From: Synechococcus sp. AG-686-F08
GTDB lineage: Bacteria; Cyanobacteriota; Cyanobacteriia; PCC-6307; Cyanobiaceae
Assembly (NCBI GenBank): GCA_003210315.1
Contig: QCVQ01000005.1
Coordinates: 1 to 64,000 of the forward strand
Direction of reading: 5' to 3'
Length of the DNA stretch: 64,000 bases
A program made the translations under genes and the position numbers. The notes below the pieces were generated by a model, which ran no database searches, was not told the DNA's origin, and saw only the letters and a program-made list of their open reading frames with translations. Of the stretch, positions 32,467 to 36,123 are shown one piece after another. Numbering within the stretch: position 1 is the stretch's first letter; each line of letters begins with the position of its first letter.

Positions 32467-33273
32467 TTGAGGGTGCCCGATCCGCTTACTTCCCAGCAAC
32501 TGCAGAGCGTGCATCGCCTGATCGATCGGGTTGCTGAACGTCAGCGCAATGACTTTGGTCACATCGTGTCTGATGTCAAACCTGATGGAACCCTGATCAC
32601 AGCCTGTGATCGATGGAGTGATGCCGCCTTTGTAGAGGGACTAGCCGAGATTGCCCCTGGCGAGGGTGTGCTCAGCGAAGAGGGAAGTCAGAAGTGTCCG
32701 ACGACTCCTGCGTACTGGGTGGTTGATCCGTTAGATGGCACCACCAATTTTGCTGCTGGGATTCCCTACTGGGCTATTTCGATTGCAAGATTCGTCGATG
32801 GAGAGCCTGCGGAGGCGTTTCTCGACATCCCATCCTTGCGCCAGCGGATCGTTGCGATTCGAGGACAAGGGGCTTGGCGGAATCAAAAACGTTTGACCCC
32901 TGAGAGCAGGGCTGTTGCTGGAAGCTCTTGCGTATCGCTTTGCAGTCGATCAATTCGTGTTCTCCAAAAAAGACCCGATCAGTCCTTTCCTGGAAAAATT
33001 CGTCTCTTGGGTGTAGCAAGCCTCAATTTGGTCAGTGTGGCGATGGGCCAAACCGCGGGTGCGCTCGAGGCCACTCCGAAAATTTGGGACATAGCAGCAG
33101 CTTGGCTCGTGCTCACGGAACTGGACTGCCCGCTGATCTGGCTGGGCCCTCACCCCGCTCATTTGGAACCAGGTCGTGATCTTTCGGAGATGGGCTTCCC
33201 TGTTGTGGCTGCTGGCTCTAGGAAGCAGCTGGAACGCTTGGCGCCCTGGGGAGAGTTTCTGCGCAAGTCTTGA
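32467..33273 (+). CDS. Inositol monophosphatase family protein (HisN/ImpA-like)
   Basis: A 268-residue Mg2+-dependent phosphatase. The metal-binding motifs are VVDPLDGTTNFAAGIPYW near residue 87 and WDIAAAWLVL near residue 205; the first metal ligand site is LSEEGS. The family hydrolyses inositol phosphate, histidinol phosphate or nucleotide bisphosphates, and the exact substrate cannot be told. The start is TTG directly after the TolC stop. Its stop at 33273 is followed by the promoter of the rRNA leader. Confidence 0.88.
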   Translation: MRVPDPLTSQQLQSVHRLIDRVAERQRNDFGHIVSDVKPDGTLITACDRWSDAAFVEGLAEIAPGEGVLSEEGSQKCPTTPAYWVVDPLDGTTNFAAGIPYWAISIARFVDGEPAEAFLDIPSLRQRIVAIRGQGAWRNQKRLTPESRAVAGSSCVSLCSRSIRVLQKRPDQSFPGKIRLLGVASLNLVSVAMGQTAGALEATPKIWDIAAAWLVLTELDCPLIWLGPHPAHLEPGRDLSEMGFPVVAAGSRKQLERLAPWGEFLRKS

Positions 33274-33296: not shown

Positions 33297-33326
33297 TTGC
33301 GAATGGGGTGAGTAGTGGGTTATGGT
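33297..33326 (+). promoter_or_regulatory. Candidate promoter of the rRNA leader / structured RNA
   Basis: A -35-like TTGCGA (33297-33302), an 18-bp spacer and a -10-like TATGGT (33321-33326) lie 24 bp after the inositol phosphatase stop. The start point would be near 33331-33335, just where the first strong hairpin begins. Both elements are imperfect matches to the sigma-70 consensus. Confidence 0.4.
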
Positions 33327-33332
33327 TTTGGA

Positions 33333-33578
33333 CTGCGCGAGGGAGTAGTACTCCGAGGCGCAGCCGAGGGACAGGAAGGGCGAAAGCTTGAAGTGTTCTG
33401 AGGGTGCTTACGAGATTGGGGGAGAGATCCCACGATGTTGTAAGTTTCAAAGGCGGTCGCGAGACCGCAGGCCGCACGTCTCTGAAAGGGGACGCAAAGC
33501 CAGAACCTGGACAATCGAAAAGTTTAGGAACTGACGCTTTTATCGCGTTTAGTTGTAGTTAATACCGAAAGGTATTAA
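33333..33578 (+). ncRNA. Candidate structured RNA in the rRNA leader
   Basis: The 606-bp gap before 16S holds no gene, but its first half is strongly folded. (1) CTGCGC 33333-33338 pairs with GCGCAG 33358-33363 around an inner GGAGT/ACTCC hairpin. (2) CTTAC 33407-33411 pairs with GTAAG 33440-33444. (3) GCGGTC-GCGA-GACCGC 33453-33468 is perfect with a GNRA loop. (4) GGC 33470-33472 pairs with GCC 33499-33501, enclosing an internal loop and a CGTCTCT/GGGGACG stem with a GAAA loop. (5) TTAATACC-GAAA-GGTATTAA 33559-33578 is perfect. The text GGGACGCAAAGCC recalls riboswitch cores (see findings). It may be a leader segment of the rRNA transcript or a separate RNA. Confidence 0.4.
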
Positions 33579-33879
33579 TGAGAGCTAAATGATATTGCGA
33601 TAGAGGTGTGAGGTCCCGTCAACATTATTTTAGTTGCAGAGAAGCATTGTGCTTACAACTTGAAGGTTTTCACGAACCGTTGAGTTGTCGGTGTGCGCAA
33701 TGTGGAGCAACGACCGGATCTGAGATCCTGGAAAGTCAAAGGAAGAAGAGATTCTAAATTTGCACTCTTGTGAATCCTTCTGTCAGAGGAAGGGGGCGAC
33801 AACTGCGACCAGTACGCCAGTGCTGGGCCCGTGGGTGAAGCAAGTCAATCTGAGGTGAGAACCAAAAGGGATTGATCTA
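33579..33879 (+). other. rRNA operon leader, no gene
   Basis: This part of the gap before 16S contains no convincing reading frame on either strand. It is the expected 5' leader of the rRNA precursor, with a Pu-rich stretch and short hairpins. No clear second promoter or boxA could be fixed by eye. Confidence 0.6.
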
Positions 33880-35362
<1,483 letters not shown>

Positions 35363-35548
35363 ACAGGGAGACAAACAACGATTTTGATGTCTGAGTTATT
35401 TATTCTTAGGCCAAAATCCTGTCACCTTAGGTCGATCGGTACCTCAACTTTGAAGCTAAGAGAGTTCCAGCAATGGTTGTCTGCTTAGTGGAGATTTTTA
35501 GTTCCTAAACTTTGTCTAGTTCACAACCCATTAGGGATGAGACTCCTG
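35363..35548 (+). other. 16S - tRNA-Ile internal transcribed spacer
   Basis: A 186-bp spacer with no gene. It holds the region used for strain typing of marine Synechococcus. Confidence 0.8.
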
Positions 35549-35703: not shown

Positions 35704-36123
35704 CTGACTGCAAAGAATCCCCATCTCCAAAACCTGGAGTATGAACTCGTATGGATTGTGATTTAGATATGTCCGCTAGATGACCCTAGCTTCTTGTCAT
35801 TTTAAGGCATGGAAATAATTCCATGATTTGATTGATAGGATGCTGGGCTCGATCCAATGTATTGAGAGATCAATGCATTGTTTTGATGTCTGGCCGAACC
35901 TTGACAACTGCATAGTAAAAGTCTGGAAAGAATAAAGCATCTCATAGATGCATCATTCTTGAGTGTTTATTCACTTTGGGATGGTGTTAATTCTAAGAGC
36001 AAGAGCCGAGACTCCAGCATGTTCTTTCAAATGTGTCGAGCATTTGAGAGTTTGATTTTAATTTCTACTTGTAGAAGTTAGAAGAATCTGTTTCAACGAC
36101 AGCAAGCGTGTTGGAGATACATT
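35704..36123 (+). other. tRNA-Ala - 23S internal transcribed spacer
   Basis: A 420-bp spacer with no gene. It contains a boxB-like hairpin and the antiterminator boxA near 35896. Just before 23S the segment GTGTTGG is complementary to CCAACAC after 23S (38986-38992), forming the 23S processing stem. Confidence 0.75.
35896..35907 (+). promoter_or_regulatory. boxA antitermination site in the rRNA spacer
   Basis: GAACCTTGACAA at 35896 matches the cyanobacterial ITS boxA (GAACCTTGAAAA, one difference), bound by NusB/S10 to prevent early termination. An AGATCAA/TTTGATGTCT boxB-like hairpin lies just upstream. Confidence 0.65.

Follow-up and report, generated by a model that had tools for sequence, protein, structure and literature searches.

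The window analysed here is a stretch of 64,000 nucleotides from Synechococcus sp. AG-686-F08, and the region under study is located at positions 33333-33578. Its upstream neighbour is a gene of the inositol-monophosphatase family (PF00459, 32467-33273), and the 16S rRNA gene lies directly downstream of the leader in the same orientation. The pre-16S rRNA leader is about 545 nt long, and 33333-33578 makes up its 5' half. The original prediction, which was made from the letters of the DNA, described 245 bp with no coding potential; indeed, no ORF of at least 80 amino acids overlaps the region. The features of the locus are as follows.

33297-33326, + strand: candidate rrn promoter (TTGCGA at 33297-33302, an 18-base spacer, and TATGGT at 33321-33326; our own reading)
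33334-33362, + strand: leader hairpin 1 (CTGCGC/GCGCAG, inner GGAG/CTCC); covariation, with one inner pair GC in 15, AU in 9, and CG in 2 sequences
33363-33405, + strand: leader hairpin 2; outer stem covaries
33406-33446, + strand: leader hairpin 3 (GCTTACGA.../...TTGTAAGT); outer stem with 97.7% of cells paired and both-side change in 5 of 10 pairs
33453-33468, + strand: leader hairpin 4 (GCGGTC-GCGA-GACCGC); 95% of cells paired, both-side change in 4 of 6 pairs
33471-33501, + strand: leader hairpin 5, which adjoins boxA (the position of boxB) and contains GGGACGCAAAGCC; inner stem with 95.4% of cells paired, both-side change in 3 of 6 pairs
33503-33514, + strand: leader boxA, GAACCTGGACAA; pattern across leaders, differs at a single base from the published boxA of the spacer
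33519-33534, + strand: 5' strand of the leader-trailer helix (boxC-like position); joint fold, strict scoring, and operon comparison
33534-33609, + strand: long leader hairpin; 95.3% of cells paired, 14 of 25 pairs changed on both sides (31 sequences)
33606-33622, + strand: near-invariant leader motif GTGTGAGGTCCCGTCAA; alignment of family leaders
33633-33711, + strand: further leader hairpin between the leader-trailer helix and 16S rRNA; predicted, with covariation
33879-35363, + strand: 16S rRNA; Rfam RF00177
35498-35513, + strand: 3' strand of the leader-trailer helix, upstream of tRNA-Ile within the 16S-23S spacer; joint fold, strict scoring, and operon comparison
35896-35915, + strand: 16S-23S spacer boxA, GAACCTTGACAACTGCATAG; exact reverse complement of the published primer Picocya-boxA-R

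The promoter-like pair of elements noted in the original prediction was upheld in part: motifs TTGC and TTATG flank a spacer of variable length in most of the 30 aligned leaders, but a promoter consensus scan gave no site over the threshold at the candidate promoter. From the sequence, we infer that transcription starts near 33333. Among the leaders from several other families (L087-L099), several have a near-canonical TTGACA promoter, in contrast to the weak promoter of the leaders in the family Cyanobiaceae (hereafter, the family), and a TAAAGCGC-like block near the presumed transcription start.

The predicted stems were found at their places, in a fold with a minimum free energy of -100.9 kcal/mol for 33333-33578, which was more stable than all 200 shuffled sequences (-72.2 ± 4.4 kcal/mol; z = -6.51). 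While these stems are real, the proposed end of the element at 33578 cuts a larger hairpin, 33534-33609, of which the TTAATACC-GAAA-GGTATTAA hairpin (33559-33578) is the apex. The lower stem of this larger hairpin consists of 12 pairs that are paired in 100% of the cells (31 sequences), and base 33534 is common to the hairpin and the leader-trailer strand. Predicted structure extends up to the start of 16S rRNA at 33879.

The covariation check suggested with the prediction was performed by alignment-based counts with shuffled and slid controls, and the stems covaried among the relatives. The leader alignment contained 30 leaders; in a prediction on 28 of them (L018 and L026 were left out), 20 of the 25 helices had both-side change in at least one pair. 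Compensated changes were observed in 15 of 24 pairs in hairpins 1 and 2 (26 sequences). In hairpins 3 to 5 (30 sequences), 96.1% of the cells were paired and 13 of 25 pairs had changed on both sides; the covariation score was reached by none of 500 shuffles, and the count of further pair types, a less clear measure, by 9 of 500. The covariation score of hairpin 33534-33609 was likewise reached by none of 500 shuffles, and its number of pairs with both-side change, also a less clear measure, by 1 of 500; the structures behind these counts and those for hairpins 3 to 5 were predicted on the same alignments and are therefore favoured over the slid controls. One leader (L063 1-284, genome G014), left out of alignment A3, has a second tandem copy of hairpins 3 and 4 ahead of boxA.

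Besides the hairpins, GTGTGAGGTCCCGTCAA (33606-33622) and ACCGGATCTGAGATCCTGGAAAGTC (33713-33737) are almost constant across the family leaders, and this conservation, which exceeds the needs of pairing, may point to a site bound by a protein. After boxA, several other families have a shorter, CCTCGTCAA-like form that looks related to GTGTGAGGTCCCGTCAA.

The pre-16S leader contains a boxA, which was found by pattern in 29 of the 30 family leaders; the thirtieth genome carries CACCTGGACAA. In other families, the pattern detected it in 15 of 17 leaders, and looser patterns were necessary for the remaining two. The boxA of E. coli differs in sequence from that of the family leaders. The primer Picocya-boxA-R targets the spacer 'antitermination Box A motif' of picocyanobacteria (PMC9769826). 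The string GAACCTKGACAA is common to this spacer boxA and the leader boxA, and in the whole window it occurs twice, in the leader and in the 16S-23S spacer (chance mean, 0.02). The leader copy, GAACCTGGACAA, is followed by the leader-trailer strand, whereas the spacer boxA is followed by CTGCATAG. The leader boxA may be an antitermination-type signal for NusB-S10, and the sequence tied to this proposed site is GAACCUGGACAA. Two diverged leaders of the same family (L111 and L112, from genomes G098 and G176) have ACCTAGACAA and no match with the covariance model described below.

The long-range pairing was proposed by a joint fold of the leader and the spacer, and strict scoring narrowed it to 33519-33534 with 35498-35513. 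Unrestricted RNAduplex gave a meaningless full-length pairing, and the helices from a local alignment with permissive gap scoring were too long; thus, strict scoring with shuffle and window controls was used instead. We parsed 61 operons, of which 6 had no usable trailer and 12 were duplicates in the boxA region and trailer, leaving 43 distinct operons (30 from the family and 13 from other families). The helix flanks 16S rRNA in all 43. In each of them, the 40-nt window anchored at boxA was the best partner of the trailer, among windows more than 40 nt from boxA, and the helix score exceeded those of all 60 mononucleotide shuffles of the trailer. One position of the helix showed compensatory change (AU in 30, GC in 9, UA in 3, and CG in 1); these pair counts were obtained with a trace that looks for pairs and are biased towards pairing, while the shuffle and window scores are independent of them. 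Under strict scoring, 16 pairs make up the helix in the window, and other operons mostly have 14-18, with a gap within the helix in L073. As its partner lies in the 16S-23S spacer, 33519-33534 should not be read as a local hairpin only.

This arrangement resembles that of the pre-16S rRNA in Enterobacteriaceae, which comprises boxA, a leader-trailer helix of 25-40 bp with a conserved 5'-strand sequence, and leader helices (PMC10250234). The leader-trailer helix of E. coli is essential, with a length of 17 said to be needed, boxA mutations cost 2- to 3-fold, the leader helices affect fidelity, and the work points to rRNA folding and quality control for the antitermination complex (PMC10250234). 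The order of hairpin, boxA, 5' helix strand, leader helices, and 16S rRNA is the same as that of the enterobacterial boxB-boxA-boxC, hLT, hA, and hB, and a covarying long-range helix exists in both, but the core of the family helix is shorter (16 pairs, mostly 14-18, versus 25-40 bp; PMC10250234), although close to the E. coli requirement of 17. In contrast to E. coli, the family leader has five hairpins before boxA, and Rho was found in none of 40 genomes. The 17 operons of other cyanobacterial families likewise have the boxA-like motif, with the leader-trailer helix at the same relative place in the 13 with a usable trailer.

The leaders of the family are longer than those of the other families. 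The distance from boxA to 16S rRNA was 334-421 nt (median 385.5) in 44 family operons, some of which are further copies from a genome already represented (such copies were fetched for a subset of the genomes), versus 87-279 nt (median 163) in 17 other-family operons. From the -10 element to boxA, the distance was 174-190 nt (median 177; 36 family operons) versus 26-75 nt (median 51; 9 other-family operons), with promoter patterns that were typed by hand and differed between the two groups. By these medians, the leader was enlarged about 2.4-fold after boxA and about 3.5-fold before it, and the enlargement after boxA was also observed in genomes of 1.5-1.9 Mb. The extra hairpins are a family-level enlargement of the leader and, like hA and hB of E. 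coli, likely serve as a scaffold for assembly or processing.

NusB is encoded in the family: matches were obtained in 39 of 40 genomes, 35 of them over the cut-off. The window's own incomplete genome gave only a weak match, in a 459-aa frame, and other genomes have such a match beside their NusB. No Rho was detected in the 40 genomes, with the control positive in 8 of 14 genomes; thus, boxA can hardly serve against Rho. Apart from protection against Rho, the signal may still work like an antitermination signal. The E. coli protein SuhB, an inositol monophosphatase, is part of the rRNA antitermination complex (PMC6614801). Homologues of the upstream neighbour (71-97% identical) were observed in 20 further loci of 40 searched, all of which were fetched round rRNA leader matches. 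Orthology of the 32467-33273 product to SuhB is not supported, because its score falls far short of the cut-off for the E. coli-type model.

The original prediction left three readings of the region: a ligand-binding RNA of the c-di-GMP-I or Na+ kind, an independent RNA, and a processing element in the rRNA leader. The first rests on GGGACGCAAAGCC, which, according to the original prediction, resembles the c-di-GMP-I core in a string of about 13 letters, and on the structural conservation of its hairpin. The stem bearing the GGGACGCAAAGC letters is in fact maintained by compensation, but the letters themselves are not conserved: a loose pattern found GGGACGCAAAGC-like letters in 7 of 30 leaders (the window and its nearest relatives), and other leaders show, for example, GGGAGCGCGACGGC on the same stem. 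The Rfam scan suggested with the prediction gave no family over the cut-off in the leader, and at E values up to 10 there were three matches to unrelated families (E = 0.43-1.8), none of them the c-di-GMP-I (RF01051) or Na+ riboswitch (RF03071) model. Direct searches with the two covariance models also gave no match in the leader; the control for RF03071 was over the cut-off in 1 of 14 genomes, and that for RF01051 in 0 of 14, so that the latter search had no positive control. The listed matches of these models in the window's own genome are on other contigs. Moreover, no terminator-like site that could form an expression platform was found in the leader, and the downstream gene is 16S rRNA. 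A riboswitch of these types or a relative that sets rRNA synthesis by ligand is therefore scarcely credible, and the resemblance to c-di-GMP-I is most likely accidental.

An independent small RNA that happens to precede 16S rRNA would agree with the candidate promoter, the compact fold, and the matches of a covariance model built on 33406-33534 in 112 of 151 family genomes. The leader DNA itself matched 32 of 60 genomes, including the window's own, and none of 23 genomes outside the family. In a class-wide search (96 genomes), the model matched all 8 family genomes and 1 of 88 others, weakly and in two places, both slightly more than 100 nt before 16S matches. However, in 120 of the 150 family matches listed, a 16S start follows at a distance of 297-551 nt. 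Of the other 30, 25 are cut short by contig ends or masked bases (14 were fetched, of which 13 reach a contig end and 1 masked bases; 11 are at contig starts on the minus strand by coordinate). The remaining five comprise one (G158) near the presumed end of a circular record and four outside this examination. The region also has no internal terminator-like site, and both boxA and a strand of the leader-trailer helix lie within it. Thus, an independent RNA is very improbable. Another possibility is that a leader fragment released by processing, although a by-product, has a further function as a regulatory RNA. The hairpins in 33334-33501 are kept by compensation outside the leader-trailer helix, as this idea would have it, but hairpins that help to fold the leader or take part in the boxA complex should be equally conserved; we consider it distinctly improbable.

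Matches to the promoter end scattered on other contigs were also considered as independent copies and rejected. Eight of the nine loci printed are at a contig end or at most 7 bases away, and in the ninth (L038) the match covers bases 5-50 of a contig read on its minus strand; all nine look like rRNA operons broken in assembly. In the opposite direction, 20 of 140 listed 16S starts had no listed model match within 1.5 kb, for reasons that include weak matches beyond the list, fragment starts, and one genus with a diverged boxA region. Genomes of one genus within the family (G098, G149, G176, and G231, the last absent from the matching rows) had no model match. A text pattern of boxA plus the helix strand gave 95 stretches in named genomes, and the 80 that were listed belong to Prochlorococcus, Synechococcus, Synechococcaceae, Vulcanococcus, Cyanobium, and one unnamed cyanobacterium. 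Both elements are present in Synechococcus WH7803.

The processing element in the rRNA leader is the reading supported by boxA, the leader-trailer helix, and the location before 16S rRNA. Very probably, 33333-33578 is the 5' half of a pre-16S rRNA leader, as judged from the location, the covarying structure, the boxA-like motif, the pairing, and the restriction to rRNA leaders among the copies placed. Transcription would start near 33333, and the five hairpins would form ahead of boxA. NusB/S10 would then bind boxA at 33503-33514 and keep the leader attached to the polymerase during elongation. Once transcription has reached the trailer, about 2 kb further on, 33519-33534 would pair with 35498-35513 and unite the two ends of 16S rRNA. 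Cleavage of the helix, which RNase III performs in other bacteria, would follow, and the leader would be removed with the whole stretch. By analogy with E. coli, a role in folding, processing, and quality control of 16S rRNA, rather than protection from Rho, appears the likeliest.

We also propose, as a model that we regard as unlikely, that the enlarged leader of the family is a folding switch for ribosome assembly: in the nascent RNA, boxA and the helix strand would form a local hairpin, which would be opened by the trailer as the leader-trailer helix forms, with release of the NusB complex. For such a hairpin (33506-33512 with 33522-33528), the predicted energy was -6.6 to -7.0 kcal/mol in 12 of the 13 distinct sequences from the family, a stability equalled by 1-13 of 200 shuffles; it is nearly invariant, so that covariation cannot judge it. 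The 16 other-family sequences gave 0.0 to -5.5 kcal/mol, and two of them keep the same register. If this model is true, boxA would serve the timing of 16S assembly alone in this lineage, whose searched genomes yielded no Rho.

A description of this picocyanobacterial leader was not found in the literature, a weak absence, as the coverage was incomplete. A survey of cyanobacterial RNA motifs (PMC2864571) contains neither 'rRNA operon' nor '16S rRNA', and three other papers mention that rRNA reads were removed or left out (PMC7368042, PMC5607370, and PMC3219970).

The leader belongs to a known kind of element, which has undergone a structured enlargement specific to this lineage, and is not a new sensor RNA. 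Our analysis disposes of a mistaken riboswitch lead and gives an account of the pre-16S leader in a highly abundant photosynthetic group. As boxA is kept in genomes in which no Rho was found, the family offers a natural setting in which to ask what roles the antitermination complex has beyond resisting Rho.
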